Shown here: positions 14,587 to 59,398 of the stretch, in pieces
Numbering within the stretch: position 1 is the first letter of the stretch
Layout of the letters: the number at the start of each line of letters is the position of its first letter
Source: Fragilariopsis cylindrus CCMP1102
Lineage: Eukaryota; Bacillariophyta; Bacillariophyceae; Bacillariales; Bacillariaceae
Reading direction: 5' to 3'
NCBI GenBank assembly: GCA_900095095.1
Contig: FMBT01000336.1
Location: 1 to 64,000, forward strand
Length of the DNA: 64,000 nucleotides
Translations under genes and position numbers: made by a program
Notes under the pieces: generated by a model
Databases searched by the model: none
What the model was told of the DNA's origin: nothing
The model's input: only the letters and a program-made list of their open reading frames with translations

Positions 14587-15786
14587 ATGAAGCTATCAGG
14601 TCTTCCGTGCATGGAAGAAGCAGGCCATGAACTGTGCTTCATCTCTCACCCCAAATCCAGAAAGGAAATAAGTTGCGATATTTTCGGAAAGCTACAAATG
14701 TACAGAACTCAAAACGGATGGGAAGTATGGCGATTTATCAAAGATAAAGACAGTGGGAACTTCATCATTACATCGTGGACTCATACGCATAAGGCACTTT
14801 CTTCCAGTAGAGACGGAGGTGTGTATACCACCGAGAACAAGAACGGAAGCTGGGAGAAGTGGAAAATATCCCTTCATCCCAATAGTCGTGGCTTGAGAAT
14901 TCAATCAGCGGAGCACGGCCGATCCCTAGTCTTTAATGGTCATAAACTTTCCACAACGGATAAAGACTGCGAAGACACTGCCTGTTGGCATCTGGAGCCA
15001 GCTCATCGTAACCAGTTCTTCATTTCCGTAATATCCCATGATAAGAGACTTTCAAGTACCCTTAATGATCCATTTACTCATCACAATCGCAAGTCTTGGG
15101 AGAAATGGATCGTTGAGCCTAGAAATGACCATGCTGGTCAATTCATAATTCAGTCGCTGGAGCATGGGAAGTACCTTGGCTCGTGCGAAGATGGATCCCT
15201 TGTTGTTAGCGGATCTCCGCACTATTGGACATTTTGTACATCTACACATGGTGGCGTCTTTATCCAATCTGTGGAATATAGCAGCAAGTTATCATGTGAC
15301 AAAGACGGACGACTCTCCACCACCTCAGAACATAGTGGATGTTGTGAAAGCTGGACTCTCGAACCCATTATGCCGGCAACAATTAACGGCAAGCAGATTT
15401 GGAGTTTGGTGGGCACCGGAGTCGCAACAATTACTCTTGCTATTGCTGCGCCATTTGCAGTGATGGGTGTTGTTGGGGCAATAGGATTTGGGGTTGAAGG
15501 CATTGTAGCAGGATCGACTGCTGCTGGGATGATGTCAACTAGTGCAATTGCAAGTGGAGGCGGTGTGGTTGTTGGAGGAACCGTTGCCACATTGCAATCT
15601 ATCGGAGCAGCTGGATTGAGTGCAGCTGGAGCGAGTGCTGCGGTAGGAGCTGGGGCAGTAGCGGGTGGAATGGCATCTCTTGGAGTCGTCGCTGTTACTA
15701 ATGGACTTGCTACCAATGAGGGGGAAATTAAATTAAACGAAACTAAACGGCACTTGCCACTTTGCTCCTGGCGTCTCTGGTCGTGA
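14587..15786 (+). CDS. Beta-trefoil-like repeat protein fused to an ISG12 (IFI6/IFI27) domain
   Basis: 399 codons, single exon. Residues 1-260 hold repeated blocks of about 40-45 residues ending in a Trp pair: S-W-E-K-W-K-I-S-L, S-W-E-K-W-I-V-E-P, S-C-E-S-W-T-L-E-P, each preceded by an H-G-(R/K)-x-L-type turn. This is the look of fascin-like or ricin-like beta-trefoils, which bind actin or sugars. Residues about 275-370 are hydrophobic and Gly/Ala-rich and match the interferon-induced 6-16 family closely: G-I-V-A-G-S-T-A-A-G-M-M-S, A-I-A-S-G-G-G-V, V-A-T-L-Q-S-I-G-A-A-G-L-S. Animal ISG12 proteins sit in mitochondrial or nuclear membranes and affect apoptosis. The fusion is the odd point. Composition is less repeat-ridden than its neighbours. 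The function here is unknown. Confidence 0.75.
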   Translation: MKLSGLPCMEEAGHELCFISHPKSRKEISCDIFGKLQMYRTQNGWEVWRFIKDKDSGNFIITSWTHTHKALSSSRDGGVYTTENKNGSWEKWKISLHPNSRGLRIQSAEHGRSLVFNGHKLSTTDKDCEDTACWHLEPAHRNQFFISVISHDKRLSSTLNDPFTHHNRKSWEKWIVEPRNDHAGQFIIQSLEHGKYLGSCEDGSLVVSGSPHYWTFCTSTHGGVFIQSVEYSSKLSCDKDGRLSTTSEHSGCCESWTLEPIMPATINGKQIWSLVGTGVATITLAIAAPFAVMGVVGAIGFGVEGIVAGSTAAGMMSTSAIASGGGVVVGGTVATLQSIGAAGLSAAGASAAVGAGAVAGGMASLGVVAVTNGLATNEGEIKLNETKRHLPLCSWRLWS

Positions 15787-31254: not shown

Positions 31255-33714
31255 CTACTCTGTTAGTTCGGATACAATAGTACTAACACTAACACTACTT
31301 GGTGCTGTTATCTCATATAATTTCATGTCTACATGGTATGCTGCATGACAATTAACCACTGTCTTGATTCCATCCACTATTTTGATTGAATTACATAGCC
31401 AAAAATCGGATCCCTTCTCCATAGAACACTGCTCACATACATACTTTGATGGGTACGCTCTTGCTCTCTTTGCTCCAGTATTGAAACCAGGGCATTTGAT
31501 GTACTTGCAATAAGAGAGCTTCTTATCTAGCACAATCAGTGGAACTGATAGATGATTCCTTCCAGGCTGCATTTCCTTTTGACGATTAAAATCAGATTTT
31601 CGATAACGGAGTGCCCTTGCAGTAATAGTAGAAGCTGGTGTTTGAGGTGTACCAGTAACTGTTGCAGTAGGGGAGGTAAAAGGTTGTCTAACTGCATCAG
31701 ATCGAAGTTTTCTTCCATCCAATGAAGATGAGGTAGTAGTAATATCCTTTGTAGCACTTGGGGCATCTCCAAAGCCTCTTGTTCGTATTTCGGATCCTTG
31801 CTGCAGTAGTGAATGAGTCAAATCGTTGATACATGATCTCATTAGCATTGGGGTCCTGTCAGGATGATACTTGGTGTAAAGGTACTTGTAGATGTTGTAG
31901 GCATTGTTAAGATTCATATTGAAAAATCTAGCTGCTAACTTGGGGGACCATCCATGCAGATGCGATTCAGTAGAGAGATCATACTTGGCTTCAGCACCAT
32001 TGCCTTTATCAATCAAATGATATGTTTGACAGTACACCCACTGTTGCTCAGGGCAATCAACATCAGTGAAGTCCTTGTTCCTCCTGAATGTTACTGGATC
32101 CCTCAGCTTTCTCTGAATTCCTCCTCTTAGAAGATTAGGACCATGAAAGTTAGAAAGCGTCTTGACATAGTTGTTATCAGCCCAAATAGCATAGGTAATG
32201 GGCTTGTCCTTGTGTTGATACATAACTGATTGATGTGTACCAACCTTGATCCCTCTTGCAGCGACAGTTGCCTTACCACGACTACCAGCACCAGTACGAT
32301 TGGATTGACAAGTACCAACCATGTTGATTTTCCATTCTTCTCTTCCAACTTGACACATGGCATCACTCATGTAAGCAGAATCCATGACAACACAATGACC
32401 CTTATGCTTGAATGGCTCAAGCATAAGGTCATAGAGAGAGATCATCTTGTATTTTCCATAATCATTGATCTCTGGAATATCTTCATCGAATTGACCACCA
32501 TAGACTCTAGCAAACAACTTGTATGTACTGAGACGACCTGTAGTGATGCAGACAGTATGAATGGTAGCTCCAGTTTGAATTGGTTTTGGTTCAGGTCCAA
32601 TTGTCATGCAACTATGATACCAGCCCCCAACTCGACTCTCATCAGTGGTGATCCACTTGCCAAAGTTGACAATAGCTTGCCACCTCTTGAAAGAAGAAGA
32701 AGAAGAAGAAGAAGGAAGGTAGGTTAGTAATCGATTCGAAACAACAACAACAACAACATATACAGTACATACCTTATTATATCCATCTTCCAATAGACCA
32801 TGTTTCAATCGATGCTTTGCAGTGCCTGGTGGTGCAAGTACTTTTGGATCATCATATATATCATCCCAATCACTACCACACTCTGGATCCCAATCGTCAC
32901 TGTAGTGCAAGCATGTAGTAAGATCCTCCAAACAAGATTTAGTCATTGACTCTCTAATCGATGGAACAGCATCCATTATTTCTCTTGTTGAAAATATTTG
33001 TTCAATGGATCGACCTCCATGGATCATTCTGCATAGACAAGCACCATAGAAACGAGCCACATGGTCTCCAGTTATCACTTTGTCGCCTTTGTAATACCTT
33101 GGCTTGAAGCCACTTTCAAGGACCCTTTTCCTCATATAATTTCTCATCCTAGCAGCTTGGAATTCAAACAGAGTTTGATCATCGTCATCTCCAAATCTGG
33201 GAAGGCACCATTGGAAGACCTTCTCAAACCTGATCTCTCCATCAATGTCCCTTAATGAAACTAACTCTTCATCAGTTATCTTAACAGTGAACTCTTCATC
33301 TCCTTCCCATGCAAGTGGTTCAATCGGACGACCACCAGTATCAGTATCACCATCTTCAATAACAACCTCATCCCATTCTTCCGGCTCTGTTCTAAAATAT
33401 TTTTTTGTTTCTGTTTGTATCTCATCATCACCATCTCGAATAGGTTGTTGTGTTAGTTGGAACTCGTTGTAAGTGGAGGAGTCGAAGTCTGCATACTTAT
33501 AGATAGCCTCATATGCCATGAGGTAGAGAGCATCATCTTCTTTAGTATCTAATAATAAATTCCATCTTTGACTGATAGGACAATATGAATCGATTCTTCC
33601 ATCACAGAGCTTGTGACTCTTGTAACCGGGCCACCAGGACTCAGGGACCTTCATAGACAGTCCTACTAATGTTTCGGCCCATTCTGAACTGATTGGGCGT
33701 GTTTTAGGAGGCAT
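31255..33714 (-). CDS. piggyBac-type transposase (DDE_Tnp_1_7), one intron
   Basis: The frame is open across 820 codons, but 32686-32772 is an 87-bp intron in frame: donor AAG/GTATGT, branch-like TTACTAAC, a CTT polypyrimidine tract and acceptor TTTCAAG. Spliced exons 32773-33714 and 31255-32685 encode 790 residues. The D-D-D catalytic residues are visible in order: T-T-D-E-S-R-V-G-G-W, V-V-M-D-S-A-Y-M-S and A-I-W-A-D-N-N-Y-V-K-T-L-S. The C-terminus carries a Cys-rich zinc domain (C-K-Y-I-K-C, C-E-Q-C, W-L-C-N, N-C-H-A-A-Y-H) that binds the transposon ends in this family. No stop or frameshift is seen. Cuts and joins at TTAA. Confidence 0.92.
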   Translation of the reverse strand: MPPKTRPISSEWAETLVGLSMKVPESWWPGYKSHKLCDGRIDSYCPISQRWNLLLDTKEDDALYLMAYEAIYKYADFDSSTYNEFQLTQQPIRDGDDEIQTETKKYFRTEPEEWDEVVIEDGDTDTGGRPIEPLAWEGDEEFTVKITDEELVSLRDIDGEIRFEKVFQWCLPRFGDDDDQTLFEFQAARMRNYMRKRVLESGFKPRYYKGDKVITGDHVARFYGACLCRMIHGGRSIEQIFSTREIMDAVPSIRESMTKSCLEDLTTCLHYSDDWDPECGSDWDDIYDDPKVLAPPGTAKHRLKHGLLEDGYNKVCTVYVVVVVVSNRLLTYLPSSSSSSSFKRWQAIVNFGKWITTDESRVGGWYHSCMTIGPEPKPIQTGATIHTVCITTGRLSTYKLFARVYGGQFDEDIPEINDYGKYKMISLYDLMLEPFKHKGHCVVMDSAYMSDAMCQVGREEWKINMVGTCQSNRTGAGSRGKATVAARGIKVGTHQSVMYQHKDKPITYAIWADNNYVKTLSNFHGPNLLRGGIQRKLRDPVTFRRNKDFTDVDCPEQQWVYCQTYHLIDKGNGAEAKYDLSTESHLHGWSPKLAARFFNMNLNNAYNIYKYLYTKYHPDRTPMLMRSCINDLTHSLLQQGSEIRTRGFGDAPSATKDITTTSSSLDGRKLRSDAVRQPFTSPTATVTGTPQTPASTITARALRYRKSDFNRQKEMQPGRNHLSVPLIVLDKKLSYCKYIKCPGFNTGAKRARAYPSKYVCEQCSMEKGSDFWLCNSIKIVDGIKTVVNCHAAYHVDMKLYEITAPSSVSVSTIVSELTE

Positions 33715-52620: not shown

Positions 52621-54285
52621 CTTGTGTGGAATTGACTATTATGCAGTGGTTGACGACCTTCTGTGGATGTTTGATGGGTTGATGGTTTTGATGTTTTTAT
52701 TTGTAGATGTGCTGATGGAATGGAATGGATTGGAATGGAAAGTGTTTTCTTCAAATAATACACAATGCTGCAGAATCTCTAAACGCCCACACTCTCACTG
52801 GTGCTTTTCTTCGGGATGTCGATGCATGCTCTGCATGCTTTTTTATCGAACTTCGTAGAACAACGAAGAGAAATCTAAAAAGAAGTTCTTGAAATAATTG
52901 AAGAAAGAAAGATTGAGCGACTGCGCGGTCGATGTGCGTGAAGTGAACATCCGCTCGTGTAGAATGTGTTAAAGTCAATGATGACGTTGAGCTTGGCTAA
53001 GATCTTTCACGCTACGTACTGTAGCAGACCTACCATACTAGTAGCGTAGCGTACAGTCGTACACATCATAGTATAATCTGATAGTACCGTACCATCATAC
53101 TGTATATAAACATACATACAGGACTAAAAAAAGTAAGTGTACGACTGAGCAGAGCTTGGTTTGGCATTTGTTGCAACCATCTAGAACTAACCCAAGTTCT
53201 AATATTATGGAAGAATAAAGTATCCAGCCAAAGCCATGCCAAACAAGAAAATTTCCACTGACATCTCCTCATAAAGTTGCTTTGCTTGCATTGTTTTTAT
53301 TTTTTGTGGTGGTAGCTATATTTACCAACCAATCATTATACTATGTATACATTGTGTGGTGCGTGGTGGAGGAAGTTGTTGTCATTGTTAAGAAATAGAC
53401 TACAACAATATCTATCAAATTTGTAAACATAACCACTTTTCTGATCATCATAGCTTGCTTATGCTTTGTCTTAAGAACAGTTATGGGCGATATAATTATT
53501 AATGAGGAGGGGATAAAACAAGGAACAACACGCTCCCTTGTTTGAGAGCTGTTCCCTTGTATGTACTTTGTTCCCTTGTTTTTGCGCGCAAAACCTCGTC
53601 CAAACAAACTTTGAATGGAAAATTATCCCATCATCATGACAATGGGAATGTACTTGATCAAACCTCCATGGATATCAATTTTTTTAGTATACACTTACCA
53701 GATAAAATATAGATACTGGTACTGTTAATACTGTAGAGGCAAAAAGTTTCGGTTGAATTTGGTCATTTGGGGAAAATTCTATGAGGTCGTATACTGATGA
53801 CAGGCAGATTTTGAATCGCCAGGAAGAGGTGCATAAGAGAGGAGGATTACAAATCGAATAATCGACTAATGTATAAAGTAATAGTACAGATGTCTCTATT
53901 ATTGTTATATTAGTAGACCGTCTAGTTAGTTTTATTAATAGAGCGTTAGAAGGTTACCCATTGTCAACGGGTGTATTTGACGTGTTTTATATTTATTAAC
54001 AAAATTTACCTACGCGTTGAACGCGTTCTTCGATGCGCATGACAAAAATTACACAAATAAATAATAGATTCAAATTTTAATGATGAATAATAACGAGAGA
54101 GAGAAAGAGATGGGAGGGTAAACTAAACGTATATGTAGTTTACTCGCTGACGAAGATGTTGTTATTCATTTTTGTCCATCTTCTATGCATGGAATGTGAA
54201 TACTGATATTGGCTGACCATTGCTTCATGTCGCTTTGTCGAATCGAATCGAATTGAATTGTTCATTGAAATTGATGCATTGATGA
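52621..54285. other. Intergenic region, no gene seen
   Basis: About 1.66 kb without a supportable frame. A stretch near 53520-53595 shares the core GAGGTTTTGCG...AAGGGAACAA (minus strand) with 57456-57490 (plus strand), perhaps the ends of a small repeat. Otherwise AT-rich. Confidence 0.4.
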
Positions 54286-54639
54286 TACTTCCTCCAGCGA
54301 GCGCAAAGTGTCGCGCGGGCTATTGGTTGAAGATTTTTACCGTGCATTTCACACATGCTAATTTAGTCTATAAGGTTGCCAATTTCAGCAGGAAATATAT
54401 AACCTTATGGATGTTGATATATGAAATCTGTGTAGAATAATAGTTCAGATGGAACCTTCAAATTTTGAAAGAAATTGATTATTGATAGAGTTGCACACAG
54501 TTGAATGATGAATAGTTTTACTAGTATTTGCTAGTTATTTTTTGGGCATTATTTAGTTTTTTGGGTGATAGCGTGTTAATAACACGCTAAATTTTCACAC
54601 GATAGCCCGCGCGACACTTTGCGCTCGCTGGAGGAAGTA
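54286..54639. mobile_element. MITE with 38-bp terminal inverted repeats and TA flanks (copy 2)
   Basis: Begins TACTTCCTCCAGCGAGCGCA and ends with its exact inverse; the ends match for 38 bp. TA on both sides (54286-54287, 54638-54639). The middle is homologous, in inverted orientation, to 5361-5749. After the shared CTTCCTCCAG tip the 38-bp repeats differ between copies, yet each copy's two ends agree. Non-coding. Confidence 0.88.
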
Positions 54640-55168
54640 TGATTTTCTGATTTTCAAAAAGTAAGGGGGCTAAATCAGTCTTTTAGCTTTAGTTCAATCC
54701 GGGAATACAAAATTAAACTTGACTGGATTTATTATCGAACAAACGAAACTTGAAACTGGAATTTCGAATTTGTATTTTATTGTAAACGGCAACGGAACTG
54801 GAGACACTACCGGTAGCGGTCCTGGGATTTTTTTTATTTCGATGGCGGCGTACTATTGAAAAAGTTAAACGTCTCACAAAATTAATAACAAACTCAAACA
54901 ACGGTAGAGTCAACATCAGTCAACACCAGTTCGATAGCTACAATCACAACAAGCCAGCAAACATTCGCCGTCCGCCTTACCAATACAATACAATACCTGT
55001 ATCCCCGTAATCGTCTTGTTATCGTCTCGTCATTGTCTCTTCGTCGCCGCTATCGCAACCATAATAATTTCAATACATTCACGTTACGTTATAAATAATC
55101 TAAATAACCAATTACACTACTGTAGTCATAAAACGTATTCTGGAACTCTCAAATCACTTTACTTCCAA
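54640..55168. promoter_or_regulatory. 5' flank of the SAP-RING gene
   Basis: No gene seen. The frame before 55169 is open but lacks an ATG. CAATACAATACAATAC repeats near 54981-54996 lie in the probable 5' UTR or promoter. Confidence 0.45.
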
Positions 55169-56425
55169 ATGCCTTCTATCAATTGCGAGGAGATCACCAC
55201 GATGTCCTTGCGGCAACTTCAGGACGAGAGCCGCAATGCAGGCCTGATAGCAACAGGAAATACCAATCAGCTACGTAAACGACTTTTTGAGTGGAACAAG
55301 AGCCAGTCCCAAAACGTTGAACCGGATACAACATCAGAAGAGAAGTTCGTTTGTCCAATTTGCTTGAATGTGGCTAGTGATGTGCTTGAGTCCTCCTGTT
55401 GTGGCAACCTGTACTGTAGGGAATGCGCTGGGACCGCTTTCAAAACAACTAAAGCGTGCCCCACATGCCGCAAAGCCCACGATGGACTTGGCATCCCTGA
55501 GAGTTGGCAGCATAGCACCTGGATTGAGCGGCAGATTAATGAATTTGCTCCTAAATGCGCTTGTGGACGCAACATACCCAAAGTGGAACTACTCGAGCAT
55601 GGAAAGGTCTGCCCGAAACTAAACCGTCCATGCTCTAAATGTAAATCCACCGGATCTTTTGTAACAACTACTGGTCGTACAATGAACTGCAACGCATGCC
55701 AAGGAACTAAGGTGCTTTTGGGCTTTGAATGGAAAAAATGTTTCAAGTGCAAAGGTACTGGTGCGTACCATACAACTGTTTTGCCCTATAGATCGCATTG
55801 TCAGCCGTGCAGTGGTATCGGTGCACTCAAAGGGAAGGACTGGACAATGTGCACCAAGTGCAGTGGTATAGGAGCTCATTTCTCAGTCGATCCAAAGAAA
55901 GGATTTGTAAATTGTAGTGCCTGCAATAGTAATGGTGTGCTGAAGGGTGTGGATTGGACGAAATGTTTCAAATGTGAAGGTACTGGTGCTTACAACATAG
56001 CTGTTTCCCCCTACAGATCAGTTTGCCAGCCATGCCAGGCTCGTGGACAGCTCAAGGGTAAAAACTGGACGAAGTGCTTTAGGTGCAAGGGAATCGGTGG
56101 GTTGAATAAAAAGAACTGTAATGCATGTGATTCCAATGGCGTCTTGGTTGGCGTTGATTGGACGAATTGTGCTAAATGCGAAGGTATCGGCTCGTTGACC
56201 GTCCTTACACCACGTGTGTGCGATGTTGAATGTGATGCTTGTACAGCAATGGGCTACCTGAAAGGACTAGGGTGGGTTAGTTGTACCAAATGCGCGGGGA
56301 ATGGGGGGCACGCAACTAAATCTGGTACAATCGTCAACTGTAGCACATGCAACGGGTCTGCACAGGTGAAGAGGCGATTTATTCCAAACCCTTCAACGAG
56401 GAGTCCAGACAGTACAGATAGTTAG
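55169..56425 (+). CDS. SAP-RING protein with fourteen DnaJ-like CxxC repeats
   Basis: 418 codons from the first ATG. Order: a SAP-like helix pair (M-S-L-R-Q-L-Q-D-E-S-R-N-A-G-L, residues 12-45), which binds DNA in nuclear proteins; a RING finger (C-P-I-C-L-N...C-R-E-C-A...C-P-T-C-R, about 59-105), the E3 ubiquitin ligase motif; a CxC plus His-Cys stretch like a TRAF zinc finger (about 126-150); and then, from 154 to 392, fourteen CxxC units, many as C-x-x-C-x-G-x-G, the DnaJ zinc-finger pattern. They alternate 'C-F-K-C-K-G-T-G' and 'C-x-x-C-x-x-x-G' halves, each pair joined by G-x-x-W-(T/K)-K-C. No J domain is present. E3 activity in protein quality control is the natural guess, inference only. 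Less simple-sequence rich than neighbours. Confidence 0.82.
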   Translation: MPSINCEEITTMSLRQLQDESRNAGLIATGNTNQLRKRLFEWNKSQSQNVEPDTTSEEKFVCPICLNVASDVLESSCCGNLYCRECAGTAFKTTKACPTCRKAHDGLGIPESWQHSTWIERQINEFAPKCACGRNIPKVELLEHGKVCPKLNRPCSKCKSTGSFVTTTGRTMNCNACQGTKVLLGFEWKKCFKCKGTGAYHTTVLPYRSHCQPCSGIGALKGKDWTMCTKCSGIGAHFSVDPKKGFVNCSACNSNGVLKGVDWTKCFKCEGTGAYNIAVSPYRSVCQPCQARGQLKGKNWTKCFRCKGIGGLNKKNCNACDSNGVLVGVDWTNCAKCEGIGSLTVLTPRVCDVECDACTAMGYLKGLGWVSCTKCAGNGGHATKSGTIVNCSTCNGSAQVKRRFIPNPSTRSPDSTDS

Positions 56426-57610
56426 TAAATATGTAATCTTTGAGTCATTATCATAGAGAGGTGACGAGGTCACGTAAAACAAGCAATCGATTGATTTTTT
56501 TCTGGCTCCGAAAATAACAGTTACATTCTACGTTATTTACGGCAATCGCATAAATAATACGAATGGTTAGGGTACTGATGAGTGGTACGACGTACCACTA
56601 ACTTGTGTTTTGTATTGCACAAACGCAACAGCACGCAACCCATCCTTTTCCTTTATGTACAGTCTACAAAGTCTGATAAGGCAGCCATGCCTAGTTTTTC
56701 CAAATAATAATATACAACAATCTAAATACACGAAATCATCGAACAGGAGTTATACTTATTCACATCCTGCTCTATCCAGTCAACATCAACAAAACACGAA
56801 TCACCAAACAGGATATTGTTCAGATACATTACAATTATTCATCCTGTTTATCAAGGCAATATCGTTCTACCGAAGTGTGTCATTCCTCACTTACCAGAGG
56901 CGAGTTTAAAGATGTAATAGTCTGCTATACATATCTACATAAAAACTAGCTAGATTAATAAAATATATATATATATATATAGATATATTTATATATATCA
57001 CATAGTAAATCAATGAGTTATATTAAATTATGTACAATCTACAAAGACCTGACAAACAGTGTATGTGCAAATTAATTGACACATTCAACAGACGCCTAGC
57101 TAGTTGTACGAAAGCACTAACTACTTGGCACTCTCGATAATCGAACAACATAACTAGACAGTGCAGGACAGGACAGTGAATTATTTACGTTGCCATGCGC
57201 CGGACCATTTATACTGGGTTCTCATGCCCTTACGCTGCTATAAGAATTATTATTATGTCAGTTTGACGCTGTGTTTGATGATAATAATTCTTGTCGAAAA
57301 AGGATCAGATGCATTTTTTTGTGACGCCATCATCATCATGCTCTTCACGCTCTTCACGACGCCATCAGCATCGACATAGATTTGTGCATTATCCGCCCAA
57401 TAAAGGCAGTTTTCGGTCGTCTCGGGTCTTCCTACAAAAGAGTTAAAAGCTTTTGTACGAGGTTTTGCGTGTTAAAAGAAGGGAACAAGAACTTGGGGCA
57501 TTTACATGTACTTAGATATGACTTAGATTGTTGATCCCAATAAAGATTATATGCTGAACTTCGACATATTAAAAACTTGGTTTCTATTATAAACATTATT
57601 TATTTTCCTT
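56426..57610. other. Convergent 3' intergenic region, no gene seen
   Basis: Contains AT microsatellites (about 56963-56999) and GATGAT/CATCATCAT runs. A + frame near 56610-56909 lacks coding character. Confidence 0.45.
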
Positions 57611-58459
57611 TTAAATGTCATCCCAATCAATACTATTATCATCGTTAGTTGTACTACTACTACCCGTATTTTTACTCGTAGTAAGAACGGCGTCATCGTC
57701 ATCATGCCGAGGCAGTGATTTTTGTTCTTCTATTATTACTTCAGTGTAAGCACTATCATCAAACACAAAGTTAGAGCTCTCCTTCAATATGTCAATTGCT
57801 AACTCTTTGGCTATATCTCGATCACAAGGTACTATGAGGAGTCTCTCATTGACAGCCCAGATTGGTTTAGTTTTGACTGTTTCCCAATCGATTGGAGTAC
57901 GAATCAAGGCATCACCAGCAGTACCAACAACACGATCACATTTCTCATCGACTTCTTCTTCATGTTTCATCATCAAGAGGTTGTGGTACAAATCTGGATA
58001 CTTTGCTTTCAGGACATTCTCTAAAATCATGGACAAAAATTTCGTATCATTTCGAACCCGCAACGTTGAAAAATCAATCATCAAACGATCTCCATCTGCC
58101 GATCCAGACGAGCCAGAGTTCCGTTTCTCTACAATCACACAAAGTTCTTCGAGAGCATCACACCGTTGTCGAAAGATATTGTGTAAGGGACTACCCTTCC
58201 GGTTTTTACGATAACCATTCCCTCGTACTGTCAGGAAGGACGAATAAAAACTATTGCCACTACTGTTGCTGTTGCCACAGGATTTTTTCTTGGCGAGTTC
58301 GAATAATTTACGTTCCTCTTGATTGAGCCGATGACAATGGTATTTACTTCCTGTTCCTCGTTGCTTTTTCGCTCCTTTTCCGTAGCTTAGTCGTTCAACG
58401 TCATCGAGGTCCGGACGGAATACTTTAGGTCGTACTACGCTGCTGCTGGAACAATACAT
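57611..58459 (-). CDS. Conserved algal protein of unknown function
   Basis: 282 codons from the first in-frame ATG; the frame stays open another ~150 bp upstream without an ATG (P-I-I-F-C-H-H-C-C-Q-A-F), so a 5' exon with a Cys/His patch may exist. Visible blocks: K-K-Q-R-G-T-G-S-K-Y-H-C-H-R-L-N-Q-E-E-R-K near residue 29, F-L-T-V-R-G-N-G-Y-R-K-N-R-K-G-S-P-L-H-N near 75, D-R-L-M-I-D-F-S-T-L-R near 124 and P-I-W-A-V-N-E-R near 200. The R-G-x-G-Y-R-x-x-R-K-G-S-P pattern with basic residues suggests nucleic acid contact. The C-terminus is acidic. No known family recognised. Confidence 0.6.
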   Translation of the reverse strand: MYCSSSSVVRPKVFRPDLDDVERLSYGKGAKKQRGTGSKYHCHRLNQEERKLFELAKKKSCGNSNSSGNSFYSSFLTVRGNGYRKNRKGSPLHNIFRQRCDALEELCVIVEKRNSGSSGSADGDRLMIDFSTLRVRNDTKFLSMILENVLKAKYPDLYHNLLMMKHEEEVDEKCDRVVGTAGDALIRTPIDWETVKTKPIWAVNERLLIVPCDRDIAKELAIDILKESSNFVFDDSAYTEVIIEEQKSLPRHDDDDAVLTTSKNTGSSSTTNDDNSIDWDDI

Positions 58460-59398
58460 CGGGCTTTCTGAAGAAACTGAAGAACAACTTGAAGAAGAAA
58501 CAGGAACAAGTAGTAGTCCTAGTACTACTAGTGGCGCATGGTGTTCAATAATACATGTACTAGTGCTCCCCGCCAAGCTAATGTCATCGTTTCGATGTTC
58601 GAATGCCTGGCAACAATGATGGCAAAATATAATGGGACTGACTCAATCACTCACTAGGATGTCCACGCACATACGGTAGTACGATACACGAGGGATGTAA
58701 ACACAATAAGAGAGATGAGTGAGTCGAGTCGAGTTGAAGTACAGTAATTACAAGTTTGTTTCTTATCATAGAGAGTACGGGTAAATATGACGTCATCATG
58801 ACTCCTTTTGCGTGAGGTTATTTTAACACGCCGCCGGTGGTGGATACCGCTGATTCGATTCGTTTACAGTTCAATCACAAAACAATATTTACCGTCTAGT
58901 TAGTGCATCATCTCGCCGTCACTCATTTTTCTGACACATCATAAAACGGAACCTTTAATTAGCGCTTGCTCACTTACCATCCTCAGCTTAAGTAGCTTGT
59001 ACATAGATACAGCACTTTCCTGCGTACTTCTAAGTACGAGTATTGAGTCAAAGAAAGAGAAGCGCCGATACTGAGTAGTACAGTATTGCCGCCACAGACC
59101 AATGATTGATTCACATCAATCACCTATTAAAGTCACACGAGCGAGCGAATGAATGAATGAATGAAAAAGTGGTTGCATCAATCATATTGACTCACTCATT
59201 GCTGGCTGGCCATAACAGTTGGTAAATGATAATAGAAAAAAGCAATCAGAACCTCAAATAATACTGTGGCTTGACTAGTTGTTCATAAAAATCAAAGAGC
59301 TATTGATTTATTTTATTTTGTTTGTTTCTTTTATTGAGTATAGACTACTGTAGACTAGACGAACTTAGTAACAGTAACATACACAGTAATAGCAAGCA
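58460..59398. promoter_or_regulatory. Divergent promoter region
   Basis: Lies between the leftward orphan gene (whose frame may extend to about 58600) and the rightward ABC transporter. GAATGAATGAATGAA run at 59148-59164. No other gene seen. Confidence 0.45.

Follow-up and report, generated by a model that had tools for sequence, protein, structure and literature searches.

The locus and its reading frame

The window, the whole stretch of 64,000 nucleotides from Fragilariopsis cylindrus CCMP1102 analysed here, carries on its forward strand a frame (55169-56425) that translates into 418 amino acids (aa) and a stop codon, without an internal stop. The first in-frame ATG is located at 55169 and the upstream in-frame stop at 54935, with no ATG between them. 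Searching the assembly of the same genome (67.9 Mb, 818 contigs) with the encoded protein, P0001, returned a single place at E ≤ 0.01. The frame joins a SAP-like part, a RING, a Cys/His knuckle and an expanded DnaJ-type array with no J domain; the architecture proposed in the preliminary description stands. The features are as follows:

55169..56425, + strand: coding frame of P0001; open frame, single place in the assembly
55187..55309, + strand: SAP-like stretch, aa 7-47; 36% match to a SAP of the genome, 22.1 bits with our own SAP HMM, no Pfam match
55352..55468, + strand: RING, apparently of the RBBP6 type (CC-x-N), aa 62-100; Pfam and solved-structure matches, consensus of PMC1360078 (in excerpt)
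55556..55612, + strand: C-x1-C-x11-H-x3-C knuckle, aa 130-148; motif, aligned with the RNF125 C2HC finger
55622..56383, + strand: array of seven repeats with 14 CxxC units, aa 152-405; Pfam and motif counts
55622..55729, + strand: repeat 1; repeat alignment
55730..55840, + strand: repeat 2, closest to repeat 4; repeat alignment, divergence
55841..55954, + strand: repeat 3, closest to repeat 5; repeat alignment, divergence
55955..56065, + strand: repeat 4; repeat alignment, divergence
56066..56158, + strand: repeat 5, with a short loop; repeat alignment, divergence
56159..56272, + strand: repeat 6; repeat alignment
56273..56383, + strand: repeat 7; repeat alignment

Seven Pfam families reached E ≤ 1 on full-length P0001. 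A J domain was not among them, in agreement with the earlier claim of an array without one, and neither were a DnaJ C-terminal substrate domain, a DWNN domain, C2H2 fingers or a UIM.

Pfam assigned the neighbours of P0001 in the window to an ABC transporter, an HSF-type factor, a fibrillin-like protein, a transposase and DUF285, and one of the seven neighbouring frames scanned had no Pfam match; none of these neighbours suggests a shared pathway. A forward-strand frame at 14587-15786 carries an interferon-induced 6-16 domain (62.1 bits), preceded by weak, sub-cut-off beta-trefoil matches (RicinB_lectin_2, Fascin, FGF), and a reverse-strand frame of 819 aa at 31255-33714 encodes a DDE_Tnp_1_7 transposase (47.6 bits). 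Searching for a second allele of 52900-59300 returned, besides the region itself, a repeated element at at least 39 long places plus end pieces, as well as three short matches outside that element (40 of the 613 candidates scored). A MITE-like element roughly 360 bases long (54282-54643) lies 525 bases upstream of the P0001 ATG. Its inverted ends of 55 bases are 91% complementary, and with 40 of 613 candidates scored the genome has at least 39 more long matches to it.

The SAP-like region, the RING and the adjoining knuckle

The SAP assignment of the preliminary description held in part. Pfam SAP gave no match in aa 1-60 or aa 7-47, and the stretch is absent from the 86 SAP-like places of the genome listed at E ≤ 10. 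However, aa 6-47 match a stretch on contig C91 of the same genome with 36% identity (E 0.009), and this stretch is itself scored as SAP by Pfam (38.8 bits). An HMM that we built from 19 of the 30 SAP loci of this genome, omitting 11 as equal-score copies, yielded 22.1 bits on aa 1-60 and 17.1 bits on whole P0001, with 5.1 bits as the best of 1,000 shuffles of aa 1-60; as the C91 stretch was included in this HMM, its score and the pairwise match are not independent. Residues 7-47 likely adopt a SAP-like fold.

The RING (aa 62-100) reads C-x2-C-x11-C-C-x-N-x2-C-x2-C-x10-C-x2-C and has eight zinc-ligand positions. RINGs of the RBBP6 family follow C-X2-C-X11-C-C-X-[NS]-X2-C-X2-C-X12-C-X2-C, named C4C4 or C3NC4 (PMC1360078, in excerpt). 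Judged by its ligand pattern and gaps, which agree with this consensus bar x10 for x12, the RING of P0001 is probably of the RBBP6 type; it is not, as initially described, C3HC4: CC-x-N stands where C-x-H would be expected. The trimmed RING piece scored above the Pfam cut-offs (zf-RING_2, 29.8 bits, cut-off 27.3; zf-C3HC4_3, 27.2 bits, cut-off 27), with full-length P0001 remaining just under them (26.4 and 23.6 bits, respectively). Comparing aa 51-155 with solved structures matched the E3 ligases RNF4 (5.4e-12, two RINGs in one chain), RBBP6 (1.6e-8), RING2 (1.2e-6) and RNF125 (3.3e-6, with the alignment extending through the C2HC finger), in support of the earlier reading of the RING as an E3-type domain; TRAF6 RING structures were among the weaker sequence matches.

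In place of the TRAF-like Cys/His patch suggested earlier, we found a single C-x1-C-x11-H-x3-C knuckle, and no zf-TRAF or MATH model of Pfam matched full-length P0001 or its trimmed pieces. Pfam returned nothing significant for the knuckle (aa 130-148), which falls on the C2HC finger of RNF125 in the alignment to 8gbq. This finger is required for E2 binding by RNF125 (PMC4944129, in excerpt).

Two equally scoring places of the genome, perhaps alleles, carry its DWNN (RBBP6) gene (G000:C69:217895-218119 and C143:28695-28919). The frame of this gene contains a RING-like stretch without CC-x-N, and a motif search of 584 of the 832 frame residues revealed no RING of the CC pattern.

The DnaJ-type array, its growth and its relatives

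The array comprises 14 CxxC units at aa 155-394. Compared with 5,000 shuffles of P0001, its motifs occur beyond chance: whole P0001 contains 17 CxxC (14 in the array and three in the RING; shuffle mean 3.9, maximum 11), seven CxxCxGxG (maximum 2) and 12 CxxCxxxG (maximum 4). Pfam DnaJ_CXXCXGXG matched full-length P0001 over five stretches with 55.6 bits (cut-off 32.7), which, along with the motif count, bears out the fourteen paired CxxC units of DnaJ type noted before. The array alone reached 64.9 bits over six stretches with the Pfam model of the DnaJ central domain (cut-off 32.7), and 29.7 bits, below the cut-off of 32, with that of anti-TRAP. Its earlier designation as CxxCxGxG repeats applies to half of the units: seven of 14 are complete and the other seven are not, 12 of 14 matching CxxCxxxG.

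The units are arranged as seven repeats, each about 37 aa long, with the consensus WTxCxKCxGxG...C..AC...G.LKG; all seven share four invariant cysteines and one invariant glycine. Between pairs, the distance is 17 at each of the six junctions; inside the pairs, it amounts to 19, 20, 21, 20, 14, 21 and 19, so that repeat 5, at 14, stands apart from the 19-21 of the others. Repeats 2 and 4 differ in 32% of residues and repeats 3 and 5 in 35%, compared with at least 55% for the other 19 of the 21 repeat pairs. As these two pairs are the closest, the simplest reading is that the array grew by duplication of a two-repeat block, that is, four CxxC units or about one DnaJ domain. In 20 of the 21 pairs, with one tie, divergence is highest at third codon positions, as expected for repeats diverging under selection on the protein.

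In DnaJ, units 1 and 4 share one zinc and units 2 and 3 another. An alignment to DNAJA3 (2ctt, E 0.002) placed DnaJ units 1-4 on even, odd, even and odd array units, by which an odd-plus-even repeat of the array would correspond to the inner DnaJ pair, 2 and 3. Going by this correspondence, the array probably consists of seven modules of four cysteines, each forming one zinc ribbon like the inner DnaJ CxxC pair. Such a model uses all fourteen units, whereas two would remain unused with DnaJ-type modules of four units, and linkers of uniform length speak for equal modules; the fit of repeat 5, with its short loop, may be doubtful. Structure prediction yielded unusable models both for whole P0001 without an alignment (mean pLDDT 31.9, pTM 0.19), where the only blocks near pLDDT 50 were helices in the SAP-like region (aa 11-40), and for repeats 2-3 (pLDDT 33.5, pTM 0.21) with a nine-row alignment that combined three non-overlapping repeat pairs from the window with three bacterial arrays, each split into two halves.

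Relatives were sought in prokaryote, viral, phage and plasmid sequences, with the genome of F. cylindrus itself as the sole eukaryote. Protein scans of viral and prokaryote contigs and tblastn against phages and plasmids returned no relative of whole P0001. A viral origin is unsupported, PHROGs giving weak matches only (best E 0.0087). Each part of P0001 is already known; a RING and a DnaJ-type array in one protein were found nowhere else in the prokaryote, viral, phage and plasmid sets or in the own genome, nor in the open-access literature (titles and abstract starts among the matches listed), which does not contradict the earlier statement that the architecture belongs to no described family. 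As this is the only eukaryote genome among the sets searched, the combination may be common in eukaryote relatives. When used as a protein query, the array found only itself in the genome at E ≤ 10, and a search with the DnaJ central domain found five places outside P0001, three of whose frames were read and are DnaJ-like; in such six-frame searches, genes split by introns can be hidden.

A DNA pattern for one even-odd array junction matched 75 prokaryote and two viral loci, the latter with three CxxCxxxG each in frame and taken as chance. In 64 of the 75 prokaryote loci the frame also contained HPD and was taken as DnaJ. Three loci (L085, L086 and L097), all from Desulfobacterales, are eight-unit J-less arrays in proteins of about 145 aa with unit distances of 16-20. 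The other eight are L065, L070, L071, L079, L115, L123 and L124, in part taken as chance, and L137, a DnaJ-like frame cut at the edge with unit distances of 17/22/14. The array is therefore not as singular as the preliminary description had it. L086 aligns with the window array at 29% over 139 aa; alignments of this type are driven by cysteine and glycine and are not proof of common descent, but judging by these sequences long J-less arrays of similar geometry do exist.

The source of L086 is contig JAUVVL010000002.1 of a Desulfobacteraceae MAG (L147, L148; G001:C251), in which six J-less CxxC array places with three to eight CxxCxxxG units lie within 25 kb, with gas-vesicle genes around them. 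This cluster encodes GvpL/F twice, GvpO once, two AAA_5 frames, which we take to be GvpN-like, CDC48, ArsA and a weak Hsp20 match. One GvpL/F frame (L148:1975-2997, - strand) also has a J domain (PF00226, 55.4 bits), so that within this cluster the J domain and the zinc array belong to different proteins. Another frame (L147:13319-14362, - strand) consists of a six-unit CxxC array and a half with weak, sub-cut-off winged-helix matches (MarR_2, TrmB). Among the literature matches listed, nothing described such a combination of J-less arrays and gas-vesicle genes.

Proposed function and comparison with known systems

Given the family resemblance of aa 51-155 to solved E3s, we consider it quite likely that P0001 has E3 activity. 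In the way that RNF125 uses its RING and C2HC finger together, P0001 would bind a ubiquitin-loaded E2 through the RBBP6-type RING and the knuckle next to it. The seven putative four-cysteine modules of the C-terminal array would hold client proteins, and the SAP-like N-terminus would tether P0001 to DNA or a nuclear partner. Recognition of misfolded clients by the array, as suggested in the preliminary description, is a reasonable inference from DnaJ and from ZnJ2, a zinc-binding protein that functions as a chaperone with four units and without a J domain (PMC5818400, in excerpt). A RING-type E3 whose array binds clients is our preferred, tentative reading, to which we assign somewhat less than an even chance. 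It is favoured by the trimmed RING exceeding the Pfam cut-offs, the role of the RNF125 C2HC finger (PMC4944129, in excerpt), the DnaJ central domain score of the array, the residues invariant in all seven repeats and the third-position excess between repeats. Against it stand the lack of a RING-plus-array relative in the sets searched, the sub-cut-off full-length RING scores, the SAP missed by Pfam, the seven of 14 units that are full, the short repeat 5 and the low-confidence structure models. Moreover, the plant E3 BnTR1, which binds DnaK through its RING, did not function as a chaperone by itself when assayed for refolding (PMC5481349, in excerpt). A quality-control E3 with a built-in chaperone, in which the seven DnaJ-type modules serve as a multivalent arm in cis to the RING, appears unlikely; here, duplication of the four-CxxC block would have multiplied the modules, allowing client capture and ubiquitination without Hsp70 or Hsp40.

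The main rival, which strikes us as somewhat unlikely, is a DNA- or chromatin-associated E3 in which the array, instead of binding unfolded proteins, serves as a rigid spacer or as the docking scaffold of one specific partner. The SAP-like part lies near the RING and the C2HC knuckle, linkers of 17 at all junctions suggest a regular rod, and the array touches the model of anti-TRAP, a zinc protein resembling DnaJ that has TRAP as its one specific binding partner (PMC4027176, in excerpt); yet the SAP is weak and absent by Pfam, and the array scores far better as a DnaJ central domain. The 14 CxxC units might instead act as thiol switches or as a zinc store controlling the RING, a redox or zinc sensor that would fit 41 cysteines in 418 aa; assays of thiol-disulfide activity have been carried out on the zinc domains of DnaJ and ZnJ2 (PMC5818400, in excerpt). 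We regard such a sensor as improbable, as a mere thiol store would have no need of the glycines and the tryptophan that are conserved in the repeats.

Equally improbable is a zinc protein that derives from a RING but can no longer bind an E2 and retains a binding role only. Its unusual ligands, CC-x-N, and Pfam scores near the cut-offs would suit an inactive ligase, but CC-x-N is the very consensus of RBBP6 RINGs (PMC1360078, in excerpt), and solved RBBP6 members are labelled E3 ligases. Only a very slight chance remains for an artefact, be it a decayed frame or a fusion of two genes introduced in annotation or assembly, as could be argued from the single place in the assembly: one open frame runs from SAP to array with no stop, and the repeats have diverged with an excess at third positions.

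In kind, P0001 would be a multi-zinc RING E3. If its array grips clients, it would represent a ligase with a chaperone arm in its own chain, allowing a direct test of a DnaJ zinc domain selecting clients without J domain and Hsp70; if the array is a mere spacer, P0001 would be an unusual domain shuffle in one lineage.

CHIP and other quality-control E3s rely on a borrowed chaperone for finding clients, and RAD18 carries SAP, RING and C2HC finger in another order. The RING of RBBP6 has the same C-x2-C-x11-C-C-x-N-x2-C-x2-C core as that of P0001, but x12 before the last CxxC in the excerpted consensus where P0001 has x10, and P0001 is without DWNN. RNF125, of the RING-UIM proteins, has a RING followed by a C2HC finger, and its structure 8gbq aligns with P0001 through both; its finger begins with C-x2-C (C100/C103, in the excerpted source) and the P0001 knuckle with C-x1-C, and where RING-UIM proteins have a C2H2 finger and a UIM, P0001 has a SAP-like part and the array. 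BnTR1, a plant E3 acting on DnaK in E. coli, is another RING protein that acts together with a chaperone system, but there the RING itself is the active part, and the excerpt of PMC5481349 does not mention a DnaJ-type array. ZnJ2/BSD2 resembles P0001 in having CxxCxGxG units without a J domain; it is a chloroplast protein with four units, and the words RING and ubiquitin are absent from the main text of PMC5818400. The J-less arrays of Desulfobacterales (L085, L086 and L097) are stand-alone proteins of eight units in which no RING was matched. Finally, DnaJ class A central domains share the CxxCxGxG units, with the Pfam score above cut-off on P0001, but have four units and not 14, P0001 in turn having no J domain, and the uniform between-pair linkers of 17 set P0001 apart from the varying unit distances of the DnaJ-like L137.
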